DNA from: Planotetraspora sp. A-T 1434
GTDB taxonomy: Bacteria; Actinomycetota; Actinomycetes; Streptosporangiales; Streptosporangiaceae
Assembly: GCF_025420585.1 (NCBI RefSeq)
Contig: NZ_JAOEGB010000001.1
Location: forward strand, 558,001-622,000
Direction: 5' to 3'
DNA length: 64,000 nucleotides
This document shows, one piece after another, positions 1 through 10,314 of this stretch. The translations under genes and the position numbers were made by a program. The notes under the pieces were generated by a model. It saw only the letters and a program-made list of their open reading frames with translations, searched no databases and had not been told where the DNA came from. Position 1 is the first letter of the stretch; each line of letters opens with the position of its first letter.

Positions 1-2
1 CC

Positions 3-1805
3 GCGCCCGCGAGCGAGCCCGCCGTCGTGGAGCCCGCCGCGGTGACCCGCGAGGAGCGCCCCGCGCTGGAGCGCGTGGACAGCGCCCCCGCCGGCGCCGC
101 CGTGATCACCGGCGCTCCGGCCGAGACGACGACCGGCATCTCCGGCGCCGCGTCCGCGGTGTCCGGCACGGTCGTGGCCGACCCGCAGGCCGACACCGCC
201 GCGGGCGAGGCCCGCGCCGACGGCCGCGGCGAGCGGACCGACCGCCGCGAGCGCCGCACCCGCGGTGGCGAGCGCGGCGAGCGCAGTGACCGTGGCGGCG
301 ACCGCGCCGAGCGTGGCGACCGCCGTGAGCGCTCCGGCGACCGCGACGGCCGCGCCGACCAGCGCGCCGCCGACGCCGGTGACGGCCAGACCCGTGGCCG
401 CGACCAGCAGAGCCGCGGTGACAACCGCGACAGCAGGAACGACAACCGTGGTGACGCCCGTGGCGACAACCGCGGTGACAACAGGGGTGACACCCGAGGC
501 GACAGAGGTGACGCCCGAGGCGACAGAGGTGACGCCCGAGGCGACAGAGGTGACGCCCGAGGCGACCAGCAGGGTGACGACGCCCGCGGCCGCCGTGGCC
601 GGTTCCGGGAGCGCAACCGCCGTGGCCGTGACCGCTTCGACGGCAACGAGCCCGTGATCAGCGAGGACGACGTCCTCATCCCGATCGCCGGCATCCTCGA
701 CATCCTGGACAACTACGCCTTCGTGCGCACGAGCGGCTACCTGCCCGGCGCCAACGACGTGTACGTCTCGCTCGCGCAGATCCGCCGCAACGGCCTCCGC
801 AAGGGCGACGTCATCACCGGCGCCGTCCGCCAGCCGCGCGACGGCGAGCGCCGCGAGAAGTTCAACGCGCTCGTCCGCCTCGACACGGTCAACGGCATGG
901 AGCCGGACCAGGCCCGCCAGCGGCCTGACTTCAACAAGCTGACGCCGCTCTACCCGCAGGAGCGCCTGCGCCTGGAGACCGAGCCCAACGTCCTGACCAC
1001 CCGGATCATGGACCTGGTCTCGCCGATCGGCAAGGGCCAGCGCGGCCTCATCGTCTCGCCGCCGAAGGCCGGTAAGACGATGGTGCTCCAGGCGATCGCG
1101 AACGCGATCACGCACAACAACCCGGAGTGCCACCTGATGGTCGTCCTGGTGGACGAGCGTCCGGAAGAGGTCACCGACATGCAGCGCTCGGTGAAGGGCG
1201 AGGTCATCCACTCGACCTTCGACCGTCCCGCCGAGGACCACACCACGGTCGCCGAGCTCGCGATCGAGCGCGCCAAGCGCCTCGTCGAGCTGGGTCACGA
1301 CGTGGTCGTCCTGCTGGACTCGATCACCCGTCTGGGCCGGGCGTACAACCTCGCCGCTCCCGCCAGTGGTCGCATCCTCTCCGGTGGTGTCGATTCCACG
1401 GCGCTCTACCCGCCGAAGCGCTTCTTCGGCGCCGCCCGCAACATCGAGAACGGCGGCTCGCTGACGATCCTCGCCACGGCGCTGGTCGAGACCGGCTCCA
1501 AGATGGACGAGGTCATCTTCGAGGAGTTCAAGGGCACCGGCAACATGGAGCTCAAGCTCAACCGGTCCCTGGCCGACAAGCGGATCTTCCCCGCGGTGGA
1601 CGTCGACGCGTCCAGCACCCGCAAGGAGGAGATCCTCATGGCCAAGGAGGAGCTTGCCATCGTCTGGAAGCTGCGCCGGGTGCTTCACGCCCTCGACATG
1701 CAGCAGGCGCTGGAGCTCCTTCTGGAGAAGATGAAGGAGACCAAGTCCAACGCCGAGTTCCTGCTCCAGGTGCAGAAGACGACGGTCAGCAACGACCGCG
1801 ACTAG
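3..1805 (+). CDS. rho: Transcription termination factor Rho, 5'-truncated by window edge
   Basis: This is the hexameric RNA-dependent ATPase that terminates transcription. The frame is open to the left edge, so the true start is probably outside and the GTG at 27 is likely internal. The first 200 visible residues are an Arg/Gly/Asp-rich low-complexity insert typical of actinobacterial Rho, with a 21-bp tandem repeat at 487-570. After it come the cold-shock-like RNA-binding domain (about bases 660-900) and the RecA-type ATPase with the P-loop SPPKAGKT (about 1057-1080) and a Walker B stretch ending [11 protein letters not shown] near 1300-1330. The C-terminal half is complete and ends at TAG. 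A strong hairpin follows. Identification is certain; only the N-terminus is unknown. Confidence 0.97.
487..570 (+). repeat. 21-bp tandem repeat inside rho
   Basis: Four consecutive 21-bp units start at 487, 508, 529 and 550. They encode a seven-residue RGDARGD-type unit inside the Arg/Gly-rich insert of Rho. The last three units are nearly identical at DNA level, which points to recent slippage expansion. Confidence 0.85.
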
Positions 1806-1818
1806 TTCTCCGCGTTAC

Positions 1819-1852
1819 CGACGCCCCGGGTGGCCCGCCACCCGGGGCGTCG
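1819..1852 (+). terminator. Hairpin terminator after rho
   Basis: A perfect 15-bp GC-rich stem (1819-1833 with 1838-1852) closes on the 4-base loop CCCG, 14 bases after the rho stop codon. It has no strong T-tract, as is common in actinobacteria. Confidence 0.8.
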
Positions 1853-1877
1853 TCGTGCTCGCGGCCTGATCGTCGCG

Positions 1878-1925
1878 GATCGTGGAAGAAAATCGGGGCC
1901 CTCACCCCGAAAATCTTCCGCGATC
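1878..1925. repeat. 48-bp imperfect palindrome, upstream copy
   Basis: Arms 1878-1898 and 1905-1925 pair imperfectly around a 6-base loop. Read on the minus strand, it aligns without gaps to the 48-bp palindrome at 2926-2973, with 36 of 48 positions identical, including identical 8-bp ends (GATCGCGG and CCACGATC). The copy lies 24 bp before the start of the DUF559-like gene. Confidence 0.8.
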
Positions 1926-1949
1926 ACGAAGGGACGCCATACTGCCACG

Positions 1950-2927
1950 GTGAACCCTCGTCCCGAGCCTCCTGAGCTGCCTCACTTTGAGCTCCTGCTG
2001 GAGTCACAGGCGGGTGTCCTTTCGCGGCCACAGGCGCACCGCAGCGGCATCACCGACGCCGCGATCACCGCACGCCTCGAAGCGCGGCGCTGGCAGCGCG
2101 TACATCCTGGCGTGTATGCGAGCTTCACCGGATCGCTCCCAAGAGAGGCCCGTCTGTGGGCTGCGATCCTTTACGCGGGGAAGGGGGCGGCGCTGAGCCA
2201 CGAGACGGCGGCGGAGGTCCATGGCTTCGCGGACCGGCCTTCTGGCCGCATCAACCTCACGATCCCCTCGACGCGCAAGGTCGAGCAGCCGCCGGGGCTG
2301 AGGATTCGTCGGGCTAATCGCTTCCAGGCGGGGGCCGCGTATGGTGGACTACCGCGCCTCACGACCGTCGAACAGACGATCGCGGACCTCTCGCGGGACT
2401 GCTGCGCGACACTCGATGACGCCTACGGCTGGATCACGAGAGCATGCGCTCGCGGGAAGACGACGCCGCAGGCCGTCACCGCCTTCCTGGGGCGGCAGAG
2501 CAGAGTGCGCTGGCGGGAGGACCTGCTTGTGGGCCTCGGGCACGTCGCGGAGGGCGCTCACTCTCCACTGGAGATCAGATTCGTGCGGGACGTCGAACGC
2601 CGCCACGGGCTTCCCGCCGGCCGTCGCCAGCGTGCCGTACGGCAAGGGCGTCAAGACGTCTTCTACGAGGAGTTCGGGTTGACGATAGAGCTCGACGGCC
2701 GGGCATACCATGCGGAATGGTCGGACGACATCGGCAGGGACAACGCTTCCATCAGCCGGGGGGAGGCGACGATGCGGTATGGGTGGACCGCTGTCCGGAA
2801 CCGGCCGTGCCGCGTAGCCGCCGAGATCGCCGATGCCCTGCTCTGTCGCGGCTGGGACGGCCTTGCCCTCGAAGCCTGTGCCGTCGGATGCCCCATCGGC
2901 CGTTTTGACCGCCTGAGCCGGCGATGA
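1950..2927 (+). CDS. AbiEi-like winged-helix plus DUF559 (Vsr-like) nuclease-fold protein
   Basis: This 325-residue protein has an N-terminal AbiEi-antitoxin-like helix-turn-helix region (about residues 12-110: LSRPQAHRSGIT, RLEARRWQRVHPGVY, ALSHETAAEVHG). The C-terminus resembles DUF559, a Vsr-type PD-(D/E)XK fold, with EEFGLTIELDGRAYH as the core acidic strand. The GTG at 1950 is chosen because family similarity begins there; longer upstream starts would run through the rho terminator hairpin. Such proteins are widespread in actinobacteria and usually stand alone without an AbiEii toxin, as here. Two related 48-bp palindromes bracket the gene, and the downstream one overlaps its stop codon. 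Cellular role is unknown; nuclease activity is inferred from the fold only. Confidence 0.75.
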   Translation: MNPRPEPPELPHFELLLESQAGVLSRPQAHRSGITDAAITARLEARRWQRVHPGVYASFTGSLPREARLWAAILYAGKGAALSHETAAEVHGFADRPSGRINLTIPSTRKVEQPPGLRIRRANRFQAGAAYGGLPRLTTVEQTIADLSRDCCATLDDAYGWITRACARGKTTPQAVTAFLGRQSRVRWREDLLVGLGHVAEGAHSPLEIRFVRDVERRHGLPAGRRQRAVRQGRQDVFYEEFGLTIELDGRAYHAEWSDDIGRDNASISRGEATMRYGWTAVRNRPCRVAAEIADALLCRGWDGLALEACAVGCPIGRFDRLSRR

Positions 2928-2973
2928 TCGCGGTAGAAACTCCAGGCGCTGACCTCGATTTTCTACCACGATC
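2926..2973. repeat. 48-bp imperfect palindrome, downstream copy
   Basis: The left arm GATCGCGGTAGAAA (2926-2939) pairs with a right arm ending in TTCTACCACGATC at 2973. The element begins inside the TGA stop codon (2925-2927) of the DUF559-like gene. It is the inverted partner of the copy at 1878-1925, with the same length and 75 percent identity. Confidence 0.8.
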
Positions 2974-3004
2974 ATGTCGATGACCACGGGCCTTCGGCCA
3001 ATAT

Positions 3005-3042
3005 CGAAGGGCCCGAGTGGATTGCCCCACTCGGGCCCTTCG
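3005..3042. terminator. Bidirectional hairpin terminator
   Basis: A perfect 16-bp stem (3005-3020 with 3027-3042) closes on a 6-base loop between two convergent genes. It can serve both the DUF559-like gene and the secreted-protein gene on the minus strand. Confidence 0.8.
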
Positions 3043-3053
3043 TATTCGTGGTC

Positions 3054-3095
3054 CTGTACGGCTTGCGCCAGGGGTTGGTGACGCGAGCCGTACAG
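3054..3095. terminator. Second stem-loop, CTGTACGGCT arms
   Basis: CTGTACGGCT (3054-3063) pairs with AGCCGTACAG (3086-3095) just downstream of the secreted-protein stop codon. The left arm and following bases (CTGTACGGCTTGC) recur exactly in the atpD-atpC hairpin at 21323-21335. It may be a terminator or an mRNA 3'-end stabiliser. Confidence 0.5.
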
Positions 3096-3102
3096 TGGCT
3101 GC

Positions 3103-4218
3103 TTACTTCACGTCGACGAACTTGATGTTCGACAGCGAGCCGTACGTGCCGCTGGTGCCGGTCGCCTGGGTGCGCCAGTAACCGTCGTACTTCGGCTTGA
3201 CGACCTTCGTGTACTTACCGGTGGACGACGCGCCGATGTAGCCGACGAACTTCCACTTCGTGGTGCCCTTCTTCTTGAAGTAGAGCTTCACGATCTTCTT
3301 GCTCCACGCCTTGGAGCCGCGGTAGACCTTGCCCGAGAGCTTGGTGGTCTTGCCCTTCTTCACCTTGGTCGGCGAAGCCAGCAGCGTGATCTTCGACTTG
3401 GCCTTCGTCGAGCCGGACTTCTTGACCTCGAAGCCCTTGACGAAGCTGTACTTCTTGCTGCCGCGCTCAACCGTGACCTTCAGCTGCCAGTCGCCCGCAG
3501 ACGTGCTGTAGTCGAAGGAGGTGGAGTCGTGGTAGGAGTCGTCCGACTCCAGCCCGGCGAGGGTGAGCGGGTAGTAGTCGTCCGTGTCCTCGGACTCCAG
3601 GCGAACGTCGGTGATCTTCTCCTCGTTCGCGGCGCCGCCCCGCTCAAGCTTGAACGACACGTAGACGTCGGTGTCCTTGCCGGACTTGACGTAAACCGGG
3701 TCCGGGTCGACGTTCGCGCCGGTGATCCGAGTAGCCTTCGCGACGGCCAGCGGCGTCCACGAGCCGTAGGTCGGATCGCCGGTAGCGCCACCCTGGGTGA
3801 TGCCGACCTGGTACTTCCAGTCGCCGGGCTTGTCGCTGGACGAGACGGGGATGGAGCCCGCCACGTCGGCCTTGTTGTCCGTCGGGACAGAGGCGACCGT
3901 CCCGAGCTGCGTGACATCGGCCGTGTGGGCGGCCGACTCGGCCTCGTCCACCTTCAGGTACCGGACGGTCACCTTGGCAGGCTTGTCAGCGGCCGCGTAG
4001 GCGTTGGTCAGGTGAACCTTGAACGTGATCTTGTCGCTGCCCGATGGCGGGATGAACTTGTTGCTGTCGAAATCGATACCGGCGACGGCTGCGGCATCGA
4101 GGGCGCGAACGGTCGAGACACCTGCGTTAGCGGGGGAAGCTACGGTGATGGCCGCACCGGTAGCGAAGACTGCTGCCCCCGTTGCGGCGGTGATTACCAG
4201 CCGCAGGCTCTTCCTCAT
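3103..4218 (-). CDS. Secreted protein with C-terminal Ig-like domain
   Basis: This 371-residue exported protein has a clear Sec signal peptide: MRKSLR, a hydrophobic stretch, then cleavage near ASPANA-GV (about residue 33). The mature part is rich in Asp, Ser, Thr and Lys. The last 90 residues (from about 280, SPTKVKKGKTTKLSGKVYRG) form the beta-sandwich-like repeat common at the ends of actinobacterial exported proteins, with many Lys, Tyr and Trp. A ribosome site AAGGGG precedes the ATG. I see no catalytic motif. It stands alone between convergent and divergent neighbours and is followed by two stem-loops. Function unknown; a wall-associated or extracellular binding role is an inference. 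Confidence 0.8.
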   Translation of the reverse strand: MRKSLRLVITAATGAAVFATGAAITVASPANAGVSTVRALDAAAVAGIDFDSNKFIPPSGSDKITFKVHLTNAYAAADKPAKVTVRYLKVDEAESAAHTADVTQLGTVASVPTDNKADVAGSIPVSSSDKPGDWKYQVGITQGGATGDPTYGSWTPLAVAKATRITGANVDPDPVYVKSGKDTDVYVSFKLERGGAANEEKITDVRLESEDTDDYYPLTLAGLESDDSYHDSTSFDYSTSAGDWQLKVTVERGSKKYSFVKGFEVKKSGSTKAKSKITLLASPTKVKKGKTTKLSGKVYRGSKAWSKKIVKLYFKKKGTTKWKFVGYIGASSTGKYTKVVKPKYDGYWRTQATGTSGTYGSLSNIKFVDVK

Positions 4219-4539
4219 GGATACCCCTTACATTGGTAAAATTGAGGGAAAAGTCGGGTTTGAACATCGGAGCCTAGTGGGGCTGATGTGACTCGTCCAC
4301 CTGAACGGTGAGGTTCCTCCCGGTTCGCGCGGAGTTCCGCTGCAGTTCAGCGCTGGTGCGCGGCCTTGACAAGAGACGGGGAATAGCCGACGGCCTGGGA
4401 AGGTTGAGGGATCTGGCACACTGGAACCCGAACCGCAGCGGTACCGGTTCCCGCCCGCGCATCACGAGTGTGCCGATGCGCGAAAGCCGTACGAGGCGCA
4501 AGCGACCCGGCGACCGCACCAGAGCGTTAGGACTGAGAC
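4219..4539. other. Intergenic region between divergent genes
   Basis: These 321 bp separate the secreted-protein gene (minus) from rpmE (plus) and must carry both promoters. A TTGACA hexamer lies at 4366-4371 on the plus strand, but no matching -10 box stands at 16-18 bp. The half near 4219-4265 is unusually AT-rich for this genome and probably holds the minus-strand promoter. No gene or repeat is visible. Confidence 0.4.
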
Positions 4540-4758
4540 ATGAAGCCCGACATCCACCCGGAGTACGTGGTCACCGAAGTGACCTGCACCTGCGGGAACT
4601 CCTTCACGACGCGTAGCACCGCGAAGAGTGGGACCATCCACGCCGACGTCTGCTCGGCCTGCCACCCGTTCTACACGGGCAAGCAGAAGATCCTCGACAC
4701 CGGTGGCCGGGTGGCGCGCTTCGAGGCGCGCTTCGGGAAGAAGGCCCAGAGCAAGTAG
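4540..4758 (+). CDS. rpmE: 50S ribosomal protein L31, zinc-binding type
   Basis: This 72-residue protein is full length for bacterial L31. It retains the metal ligands Cys16, Cys18, Cys38 and Cys41 (VTCTCGN and CSACHPF), so it is the C+ zinc form rather than the zinc-independent paralogue. L31 sits at the central protuberance and bridges the two subunits. Its place between rho and prfA is the standard actinobacterial order. Confidence 0.97.
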
Positions 4759-4860
4759 CTCGCTCAGGACGCCGGCTCGGATGCGGCCCTCGACAAGGGG
4801 GCCCATCTGGGTCGGCGTTCTTGGTGATTACGGCCGAAATCCCGATGAAAGGAGCGTGCG

Positions 4861-5907
4861 GTGAACCTCGACGAGATCATCAGCGAGTACGAGGACCTGG
4901 AGAAGCGGCTCGCCGATCCCGCCGTGCACGCCGACCAGGCGAAGGCCAGGACGTACGGCAAGCGCTACGCGGCGCTCACGCCCATCGTGGCGACCTATCG
5001 GGAGCTGGAGGGGGTCCGGCAGGACCTCGCGGCGGCCCAGGAGCTGGCGGCTGAGGACGCGTCGTTCGCGGAGGAGGCGGCCGACCTCGAAAGCCGCATC
5101 CCGACGCTGGAGGAGAAACTGACGCATCTCCTCGTCCCGCGCGACCCGAACGACGACAAAGACATCATCATGGAGATCAAGGCGGGCGAGGGCGGCCAGG
5201 AGTCGGCCCTGTTCGCGGGCGACCTCCTTCGGATGTATCTCCGCTACGCCGAGCGGATCGGCTACAAGACCGAGATCATCGACGCCCAGCACTCGGACCT
5301 CGGCGGCTACAAGGACGTCACGGTCGCGATCAAGGGCAAGGAGGGCGTCTGGGCCCGGCTCAAGTTTGAGGGCGGCGTCCATCGCGTCCAGCGGGTGCCG
5401 GTGACGGAGTCCCAGGGCCGCATCCACACCTCCGCCGCCGGAGTGCTCGTCTACCCCGAGGCTGAGGACGTCGACATCCAGATCGACCCCAACGACCTGC
5501 GGATCGACGTGTTCCGGTCAGGCGGTCCCGGTGGACAGAGCGTCAACACGACCGACTCGGCCGTCCGGATCACCCATATCCCGACCGGTGTGGTGGTCTC
5601 CTGCCAGAACGAGAAGAGCCAGCTCCAGAACAAGGAGTCGGCGATGCGCGTCCTGCGTGCCCGGCTGCTCGCGATCGCCCAGGAGGAGGCCGAGGCCGCC
5701 GCCATGGCGGAGCGCAAGTCCCAGGTGCGTACGGTCGACCGTTCCGAGCGGGTCAGGACCTACAACTACCCGGAGAACCGAATTTCCGACCACCGTGTCG
5801 GCTACAAGGCCTACAACCTCGACCAAGTCCTGGACGGCGATCTCGACTCGGTGATACAGGCATTGCTGGACGCCGAACTGTCGGAGAAACTCGCCGCCCA
5901 CTCATGA
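4861..5907 (+). CDS. prfA: Peptide chain release factor 1
   Basis: RF1 recognises UAA and UAG and triggers peptide release. The 348-residue protein has the PCRF N-terminal domain and the catalytic GGQ at residues 224-226 in [10 protein letters not shown]. The conserved stretch [19 protein letters not shown] and the C-terminal [23 protein letters not shown] are intact. A GTG start follows AAAGGAGCG by a short spacer. It is followed by prmC, whose product methylates the Gln of GGQ. Confidence 0.97.
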
Positions 5908-6040
5908 GACAGACACATGCCCTCACACGCATACCTTGAGACAGACGCAGTGACACGCCCGTCGTGACACGCGTCGTCCACGCGGATGCTGTAAGACGCA
6001 TGACATAGCCCGTGCCGTACGCCCATGCCGTAAGAGACCG

Positions 6041-7868: not shown

Positions 7869-8016
7869 GGCCCCAGCCTCGGCATCGGTTCCGTACGGCG
7901 GTGCGGGCCCTGAGCGTTTGAATCAGGGCGATTCATGCCATCTGGCTATCGGGGTTTTGTAGAGCTGCCTCCCCGGCTACCGTGAAGTGCGCCGATATCT
8001 CTGTGGAGGCGTGCCC

Positions 8017-10314
8017 ATGGCCAAGCTCGACGGGATGGATCCGAAGCTCGTCCGCGAACTGTTGTCGGAGGTCCAGCACGCCGCGAGGCAAATGGACATC
8101 GTCGAGGCCCGGGTCACGCAGCTGACACGCGGTGCCGGCGTCGCCGTACAGACGACGCACCGCCCGTCACAGGTCGCCGACGCCTGTTCGGCGATGGTGA
8201 AGGACGTGACGAACCGGCTGGTGCTCCTGGAGAAGAAGGAGAAACAGCACGGCGCCAACGGCAATGTGGCGACGGGCAAGGAGTCCTCGTTCACGGAGCA
8301 GGACACCACCAAGCCTTCGGACGACCCCAAGCCGCCCGCGGACAAGGCCACCGGCGCCGCTTCCGATCACAAGACGGATCACAAAGCCGATCACAAGGCG
8401 GGCGACAAGGCCGATCATTCCGGCGCGAAGTCGGGCCACGACCAGCCGTCCGGGAAGCACTCCGAGGCCCCGTCGACCGCGCCCAAGCACGACTCCGCGA
8501 GGCATGACTCCGCCAAACCCGAGTCCGCCAAGGGCGAGACCGGCCACAGGGTCCACGGGGCGAGTGACGGCGAGATTCACGCGAAGACTCACGACAAGAC
8601 GCACGGAACGGCGGAGGGCAGCCTGCCCGAGAAGACCCACGGCACAGCCGAGGGCGCTCTCCCTGAGCTCTCCCACACTCCCAAGCACCACGACACAGGC
8701 ACCGGCGCCGCCAACGGCGTGGGCAACGGCACCGGCAACGGTGTTGGGAACGGCACCGGCAACGGGATCGCCAATGGCGTAGGCAACGGCGTCGGGAACG
8801 GCTCGGCCAACGGGACCGGGAATGGAAGTGTCCCGGGAGCCGGCAACGGCGTCGGCGACGGCACCGGTCACGGCGTGGGCAACGGGACCGGTGACGGGGT
8901 TGCCAACGGCGTGGGCAACGGCACCAACGACGGCACCGGCCACGGCGCCGGCGGGGCTGATGGCACGTGCGACGGCCCAGGCAACGGCGTAGGCAACGGG
9001 GCCGCGAACGGCACGGGCAACGGCGCCATCCAGGGTGTGGGCAACGGGGTCGGAGACGGCACGGCCCACGGGACCGGGAATGGCACTGTTCAGGGCGTCG
9101 GCAACGGTGTCGGGGACGGTGCGGCCAACGGGACCGGGAATGGTGTCGGTAACGGCACGGGGAACGGCACTGTTCAGGGCGTCGGCAACGGTGTCGGGGA
9201 CGGTGCGGCCAACGGGACCGGGAATGGTGTCGGTAACGGCACGGGGAACGGCGCTGTCCAGGGCGTCGGCAACGGCGTGGGTGGCGCCGGGAGCGGTGGG
9301 GCGGGCGGCACCCACGCCACCGGTGTGAGCGGGCACCAGGTCGATCATCCCGGCCAGGGCGGTGCCGGGCAGGGCACGTCTGACGGGACGAAGTCGGGCA
9401 GCGAGCAGCCGTCGACCTCCCGGGACGACTCGCAGATCATCGACACACCGAAGAAGGACCACCCCGACGACATCGACCAGACGGTGGGTCGCCAGGTGAT
9501 CGTCGTCGATGGCGTCAAGGTGGTCTCGACGCCCATGAACCAGCCGAGCGGCGACACCATCGCCTGGATCAACGACCATATGGACCAGGCCAAGCCCATG
9601 GAGATGCCGAGCATCCACGCTCACCCCGGCAGCGGCACCGGCCCTCACCCGGACGGCCCGCCCGGCTTCGTCGAGCCCCTCGAACCCGGCACTCCGATCT
9701 CCGGCACGGCCGGGCACGCCGGTCATGCGGGCGACGCGGCGCACACAGGCCACGCGATCGGTCACACCAATCCGCCCGGCCACAGCAATCCTCCCGCCCA
9801 CCCGAATCCCGCCGGTCAGCCCGGTTCGGGCCACAGCGGGAGCACCGGCACCACCAATCACCATCCGGGGCTGGCGCCGGGCGACCCCGACGGCGACTAC
9901 GTCGGCACCCCCGAGGACAACCTCACGGATGATCCGTACGCCACCGGCAACGGCGACTCGGTGCCCGGCACGCCCGAGCACCACGGGAGCACGGGCGGGT
10001 CGAGTGGCAGCGGAGGGCTCGGCTACGCGAGCACGTCAGCCGGCGCTTCCGGTTACGGCGATCCCCGGTCGGAGGCGGCGGCCCAGCCGGGCGACGTGCT
10101 GTCCTACCCGGCGGGTCCGGAGGACGACAACGTGCTGCGGACGCTGGTCGATCACCACCGGGAGATCCAGCCCATCGACATGCCCAGCGTCAGCGTCCCC
10201 GAGGGGGAGTGGGGCAAGGGCGAGTGGGCGCCGATGAAGATCGAGCCGGATGGCTCCTCCGGCAGCGTCGATCCCGGCGACCCGGGCAGGCCCATCCCAC
10301 CCCCCGGGAGCTGA
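8017..10314 (+). CDS. Large Gly/Asn-repeat low-complexity protein
   Basis: This 765-residue protein of unknown function starts at ATG 8017, with GGAGG 7 bp upstream. Residues 1-75 are predicted helical ([25 protein letters not shown]). Next comes a Lys/Asp/His-rich linker (residues 90-220, [12 protein letters not shown]). About 210 residues of alternating GNG, GVG and GTG units follow (bases about 8700-9300), and the C-terminus is Gly/Pro/His-rich with two similar stretches, [11 protein letters not shown] and [12 protein letters not shown] see no signal peptide or membrane segment. Two small genes follow in tight order. A structural or type VII-secreted role is only a guess, based on the helical head and small helical partner. 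Confidence 0.7.
9085..9252 (+). repeat. Two identical 84-bp tandem units in the Gly/Asn protein gene
   Basis: Units 9085-9168 and 9169-9252 are identical base for base and encode a 28-residue block beginning [13 protein letters not shown] third, diverged unit starts at 9253. Absence of even synonymous change points to very recent duplication. Confidence 0.9.

Follow-up and report, generated by a model that had tools for sequence, protein, structure and literature searches.

A winged-helix/DUF559-type nuclease gene set between palindromes in Planotetraspora, and a probable REP/RAYT-like organisation among its actinobacterial relatives

The window analysed here, a stretch of 64,000 nucleotides from Planotetraspora sp. 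A-T 1434, carries near its left end a gene for a two-part protein, with an AbiEi-type winged helix and a DUF559-type nuclease part, that stands between two palindromes (Table 1). For the start of the gene we chose a GTG at 1950, the frame itself being open back to 1830; the stop codon occupies 2925-2927. Pfam identifies the upstream neighbour as rho, whose stop codon ends at 1805, and downstream lies a convergent gene (3103-4218) with no Pfam match at E 0.1, beyond which sits rpmE (L31), again by Pfam. The palindrome pair is itself enclosed by two terminator-like hairpins. With the candidate -10 box seen by eye, the -35 region would fall within the left palindrome. The window has other unusual stretches as well: the N-terminal part of Rho (27-657) is long and rich in GDRGDARGD-like repeats, and a long, low-complexity ORF at 7987-10314 contains many repeats resembling a protein motif of 11 letters.

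Table 1. Positions of the gene, its predicted domains, the palindromes and neighbouring signals in the window
Feature	Position	Strand	Basis or remark
Terminator hairpin of rho, left border; perfect 16-bp inverted repeat	1819..1852	+	Like hairpins behind rho in element-free G064 and G123 (by eye)
Left palindrome, 48 bp; the 52-bp family frame is 1876-1927, with degenerate outer hexamers CGGATC/GATCAC	1878..1925	.	Pairs with 2926-2973
Possible -10 box CATACT just 5' of the GTG	1938..1943	+	By eye
AbiEi-type winged-helix plus DUF559-type nuclease gene, 325 aa	1950..2927	+	ORF, Pfam, PADLOC, profile search, alignment
AbiEi_4-like winged-helix segment, aa 16-57	1995..2120	+	Pfam E 6.4e-5 (below curated cut-off)
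Predicted nuclease core, aa 202-276: E208, D236, E247, D249, R263, R276	2553..2777	+	Alignments of relatives
Right palindrome, complete, ATGATC-N40-GATCAT, 52 bp; overlaps the stop codon and contains 2926-2973	2924..2975	.	Pattern scan, symmetry scores
Right border; terminator-like hairpin where the convergent gene 3103-4218 ends	3005..3042	-	Like hairpin in G064 (by eye)

A first-pass annotation of this DNA had described two 48-bp palindromes paired tightly round the gene, 36/48 identical with one reverse-complemented and the right one lying over the stop codon, and the sequence bears this description out. Together, 1878-1925 and 2926-2973 form the longest inverted pair within window positions 1-6000 (49 nt, 76%), and their self-symmetry is 34/48 (left) and 36/48 (right). 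In ten first-order Markov copies of the window, the best self-symmetry anywhere in the 64 kb was 32-36/48; since such copies reach equal symmetry, we rejected a single window palindrome as significant. The pair is another matter. It exceeds chance, though neither palindrome does so alone, because the two are alike at 36/48 positions with one reverse-complemented (35/48 direct), whereas the next-best 48-mer in the window reaches 27/48.

What kind of protein is framed in this way? Pfam matches the window protein to AbiEi_4 (E 6e-5), AbiEi_1 (0.004) and DUF559 (0.016), all below the curated cut-offs, and the PADLOC AbiEi model matches aa 17-183 at E 5.8e-21. A profile of 28 relatives finds 9hlo (named AbiGI; E 0.0036) and 6y8q ('abortive phage infection protein'; E 0.0048) with its N-terminal half, and the 'endonuclease-like protein' 3hrl (E 0.012) with its C-terminal half. 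At E 0.01, AbiEi_4 is matched by Pfam in 20/28 members and DUF559 in 7/28; L033 and L003 pass the DUF559 cut-off, but the window protein does not. Among 53 full-length, unbroken relatives (11 partial or broken ones were left out of the alignment), E208, D236, E247, D249 and R263 are invariant (53/53) and R276 is present in 98%, and a second alignment has all six core residues in 28/28. The invariance of E208, D236, E247 and D249 in the 53 full-length relatives argues that the nuclease core is under selection. In their domain matches and conserved acidic core (E, D and ExD in 53/53), the members resemble predicted DUF559 nucleases, whose fold we take to be Vsr-like. Neither an HUH/tyrosine transposase nor any other transposase domain was found by Pfam in the window protein or its relatives, and HxH is absent from the invariant and nearly invariant columns of the 28-member alignment. 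Other searches returned little: the single window sequence gave chance-level PDB matches only, a single-sequence AlphaFold2 prediction had a mean pLDDT of 35 and yielded no usable structure, and sub-alignment A2 had no relative in a viral contig collection.

The winged helix, recognised by Pfam, PADLOC and the profile alike, recalls the AbiE type IV toxin-antitoxin system, in the operon of which the toxin gene is DUF1814 (AbiEii), according to PMC7319586. Unlike AbiE, however, the window gene has no adjoining toxin gene (upstream is rho, and the convergent gene downstream is the one lacking a Pfam match), and it has an extra nuclease domain and palindromes on both sides that are dispersed in relatives. 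An AbiE toxin-antitoxin identity was rejected by the partner test in the window.

Matches to the gene at E 1e-20 occur in 32/120 genomes, the window's own included, with no genome holding more than five copies at that threshold. From 65 loci, 57 were used once seven truncated ones and L067, which repeats L017, had been left out, and 20 of the 57 AbiEi/DUF559-type genes, the window's among them, are bracketed by like palindromes, as opposed to 0/44 other genes. No pair was detectable in the remaining 37/57, which include the closest relative, L005 (55% identity). An association of palindromes with DUF559 genes elsewhere, the lack of which would have refuted the first-pass annotation, is thus observed. 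The same 48-bp sequence does not recur beside them: the palindrome differs between bracketed elements, each having a private sequence, and the architecture alone is common. Pairs may be direct (L008, L035, L003) or inverted (L012, L015, L065); in several relatives the downstream palindrome overlaps the gene end, and long inverted ends are found in G119 (62 bp) and at L042 (G013:C119; about 134 bp, far above the palindromes of other elements). Across 18 elements palindrome likeness tracks protein likeness (Spearman 0.38, Mantel p 0.005), a relation into which shared ancestry is mixed, and the strongest pair in this test, L035/L036, consists of two elements of one genome. The form of the window's own family, ATGATC-N39/40-GATCAT (51-52 bp), has nine copies in a hand-compiled list of 48 element loci (that at window 2924 included) and none in 29 rho loci, and the same hexamers at other gaps gave two matches, at 57 and 59. 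By eye, the palindrome copies have no GTAG tag at a constant place; their conserved ends are the paired hexamers.

The only match of the window protein in a plasmid collection is a DUF559 protein of Tsukamurella tyrosinosolvens NCTC13231 (26% identity), and its gene, a case found after the main survey, is bracketed by an inverted palindrome pair. In a phage collection the only match is a 33% identical gene on an unverified faecal phage scaffold (L257, MT835975.1), where the inverted likeness is 26 but the second arm, at 8, misses the palindrome cut of 10.

Within genus g107, the G119 locus and its flanks were searched in 59 genomes drawn from a larger group, and of at least 28 gene places outside that locus 20 were fetched. 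Under the same test as in the 57-gene survey, 14/23 g107 element loci are bracketed, compared with 0/101 control ORFs, and the pattern CGTCAT-N30-ATGACG, exactly 42 bp long, has 37 copies in the 92.6 kb of the 23 element loci and none in 203 kb of 56 element-free g107 loci, where the controls come from two orthologous regions and the 101 genes and 203 kb are therefore non-independent. At least one copy is present in 18/23 element loci and at least two in 14/23, with six copies in one tandem-array locus. When gaps from 10 to 59 between CGTCAT and ATGACG were scanned, a gap of 30 was the only one to occur, bar one match at 56. Nine of the 23 loci fail the bracketing test, of which four (L157, L187, L189 and L197) are flanked left and right by palindromes when judged by pattern or by eye. 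Inverted pairs are clear at L157, L192 and L193 and slight at L202 and L204, and direct pairs stand at L188 and L190. At L189 (G181), positions 2486-2819, five palindromes form a tandem array with a 73-bp unit (the 42-bp palindrome plus a 31-bp tail) directly behind the gene. We regard the association of the gene family with private palindromes as well supported.

Three g107 genomes, G119, G176 and G151, carry the element behind the same stop codon with three different palindrome pairs, the left and right members of which agree at 41/42, 41/42 and 36/42 positions, respectively; the copy in G151 is shortened. How can the sequence of a palindrome change while its outline stays the same? Across 16 elements, doubly changed cells in the inner arms number 45, where shuffling gives a mean of 18 (0/500 shuffles as high; slid partners at most 28), a count that leans towards pairing inasmuch as the 16 palindromes were picked from the 23 loci for a visible pair; the 42-bp length was re-checked by a pattern scan free of such choice. 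The inner arms differ yet keep pairing, which indicates that length and ends are fixed and that the inside drifts in concert.

Behind rho, the gene is absent within about 1.5 kb in 29/29 other genomes, L105 being cut by a contig end; all 28 informative rho loci lack it there, and no case of the gene at this locus but without palindromes was seen among them. The first-pass annotation had looked to related strains for an empty site between rho and rpmE, and G064 supplies one: it retains both terminator-like hairpins and, at 61%, the convergent gene, and it has neither the nuclease gene nor the palindromes. At the site corresponding to the G119 locus, the DNA of G140, G160, G161, G128 and G167 measures 61-164 bp and is free of gene and palindrome alike, and G181 and G159 have a different sequence of about 450 bp. 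By eye, no target-site duplication was recognised at the G119-locus sites, where the intergenic DNA is diverged; as a general origin of the pair, target-site duplication was rejected because inverted pairs occur.

Cognate palindromes are also scattered as solitary copies in several of the genomes examined. The second element of the window's genome (L003, G000:C71:25313-26134), whose gene is only 29% identical to the window gene and whose palindrome is quite different, has two flanking and nine solitary palindromes at E 1e-3, and no such gene lies beside the nine. The palindrome of G119 has two flanking and 14 solitary copies in its genome and none in seven other genomes, each of which has elements whose palindromes are different. 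For that of G047, the 22 places listed, some at contig ends, comprise the two flanks and up to 19 solitary copies, C227 and C19 sharing flanks and counting as one place; a related set occurs in G036, whose own related gene (L007) has one copy 5' of it, and eight other genomes have none. The G176 palindrome is found in five of the 59 g107 genomes, namely G176 itself (one solitary) and, in more distant form, G151 (three solitary), G139 (three places), G163 (one) and G142 (one, short); G139 has its three G176-like palindromes with no gene place among the matches listed. In Tsukamurella, the palindrome matches three NCTC13231 records, two of them beyond the gene's own at 88% identity, and elsewhere in 72,556 records nothing scores better than E 0.5. 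One of these copies, on plasmid 9, has a convergent gene 8 bp away on either side, and the other copy read separates divergent genes, a position that an operator could hold. For the window's own palindrome, the solitary copies that the first-pass annotation had suggested looking for did not turn up in its genome, where a palindrome half, with up to three mismatches, is found in its own four arms and once elsewhere (control 0).

Of 26 solitary copies read (L148, which was unreadable, is not counted), 17 are intergenic, four lie over an ORF end and five fall inside a predicted ORF, the ORF call being a rough rule. Often they stand close behind the stop codons of convergent genes, in some cases at 3-23 nt (L076, L116, L118). 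At L226 (G119:C13), a solitary palindrome between convergent genes occupies the spot that an ordinary terminator-like hairpin holds in G181 and G160 (L227, L230). When the copies of one genome are compared, their two arms covary no more than in shuffles, and for that reason the single copies look like decaying rather than maintained sites, and within-genome covariation was rejected as proof of a selected hairpin.

What, then, do the palindromes do? One answer is that the AbiEi-type winged helix represses its own gene through palindrome operators, as the first-pass annotation had also suggested, and that the other copies are its regulon. The position of the left palindrome just 5' of the window gene start, the Tsukamurella copy between divergent genes and the binding of promoter inverted repeats by AbiEi of other bacteria (PMC7319586) are all in keeping with self-repression, which may apply to the upstream copy. 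It leaves the downstream and dispersed copies unexplained, however: a palindrome at or after the stop codon has no role in it, several solitary copies lie between convergent genes (those at L076, L116 and L118 and on Tsukamurella plasmid 9), the nuclease residues are invariant in 53/53 and copies within a genome decay arm by arm. As the sole explanation, we therefore think autoregulation unlikely. We are no more inclined to a homing or targeting scheme, which would make the palindromes a repeat family in their own right and have one of them duplicated by insertion of the nuclease gene into it. Vsr-like (EDxHD) homing endonucleases exist, and their nuclease fold would be related to that assumed here for DUF559, as the profile match to 3hrl suggests; many pairs, moreover, are direct, as a duplicated target would give (L008, L035, L188, L190). 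But duplication does not make inverted pairs, clear or slight, such as those of g107. Further, unlike these endonuclease genes, the present ones are palindrome-bordered and intergenic, and three species carry different matched pairs at a single locus; the palindromes looked for in further genomes (those of G119 and G047) occur only with a related element, and the empty sites read hold no such palindrome.

Two further readings take the palindromes for more ordinary structures, and both seem to us very improbable. If they were bidirectional transcription terminators kept alike by gene conversion, the replacement of a terminator-like hairpin of G181 and G160 by a solitary G119 palindrome would be expected, as might the place of the window pair between two such hairpins; yet no run of T follows the window palindromes (judged by eye, in the window only), their 42-bp length in g107 is fixed and the end hexamers are conserved, and they are bound to a nuclease gene family, with 0/145 control genes bracketed. 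Still less probable is an ordinary insertion sequence, or its remnant, with the palindromes as terminal inverted repeats. The long inverted ends of G119 and L042 have that look, but the Pfam scans found no transposase domain, pairs may be either direct or inverted, no target-site duplication was recognised by eye and the gene stays at five copies or fewer per genome.

The organisation that the system most resembles is that of REP/RAYT (REPtrons; TnpA-REP), in which, according to PMC3733652 and PMC8266576, a low-copy gene lies between palindromes, cognate palindromes are scattered, mostly in intergenic DNA, and enzyme and palindrome co-diverge. Here, too, the gene is flanked by palindromes (in the window, in 20/57 relatives and in 14/23 g107 loci), and cognate palindromes are dispersed for the second G000 element, G119, G047 and Tsukamurella, although not for the window element. 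The differences are just as plain. A winged helix and a DUF559-type nuclease stand in place of an HUH/tyrosine transposase; the palindromes measure 42 to about 60 bp, are close to symmetric and end in paired hexamers, and the GTAG tag is absent; and there are 1 to about 19 solitary copies, where REPs number in the hundreds. The system works like REP/RAYT but is not a member, since HUH/tyrosine chemistry and the GTAG tag are lacking; by organisation alone, it could count as a REPtron variant. One class of REPs offers a lead. PMC3733652 reports CGTC REPs as a large class without a dedicated transposase, in which an unpaired CGTC is followed by AT, stems are 8-9 bp and hosts are mostly alpha-proteobacteria. 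The g107 palindromes are likewise small and begin with CGTC and then AT, a likeness and a lead only; unlike CGTC REPs, they pair CGTCAT with ATGACG at 42 bp and belong to an actinobacterial genus.

We consider it probable that, in the window, a winged-helix plus DUF559/Vsr-like nuclease gene lies between two copies of a palindrome recognised by the protein it encodes, as part of an actinobacterial REP/RAYT-like system without an HUH transposase. The REP/RAYT-like geometry with a nuclease in the transposase's place, which the first-pass annotation had proposed, gains support from the relatives' own pairs, from the dispersal of cognate palindromes where checked and from empty sites without the unit. 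How might such a system work? Because 42 and 52 bp are about four and five turns of B-DNA, a dimer could grip both terminal hexamers on one face of duplex DNA. The nuclease would then nick or cut beside the palindrome, and repair or copying might carry the palindrome to new places, so that the gene would stay low-copy and the palindromes would be its non-autonomous passengers, as REPs are for RAYT. In this scheme the nuclease protein is the putative mover of the palindromes, although adjacency to the gene, even together with dispersal, is no proof of which protein the mover is. Single copies may favour the spots of terminator hairpins, to judge from the one site read, and the window's element would be an old or quiet member with no dispersed copies.

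A bolder proposal, which we put forward tentatively and as a possibility rather than a likelihood, is a new class of mobile palindrome whose spread through the genome is the work of a winged-helix/Vsr-type nuclease and not of an HUH or DDE transposase. The nuclease would hold two hexamers on duplex palindromes that measure whole helical turns, and Actinomycetota would in this way have invented REP/RAYT anew. The system is set apart as a new kind because no tested family fits and because the enzyme type is unrelated to RAYT. In a search of titles and the beginnings of abstracts, with subscription journals mostly outside its reach, we found no published link between DUF559/AbiEi-type nucleases and dispersed palindromes, and the spread of small palindromic repeats is called poorly understood even for REP/RAYT in PMC8266576. 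A second enzyme type, unrelated to the first and linked to dispersed palindromes of its own, would mean that such systems have more than one origin. It would also assign a role to proteins annotated as antitoxin-like or as having no known function, and it would provide protein-palindrome pairs whose specificity is directly testable in vitro. If the proposal is true, orphan AbiEi/DUF559 genes in Actinomycetota would serve to mobilise private sets of palindromes and not as antitoxins, and the enzyme that is missing for CGTC-type REPs could be a related nuclease.
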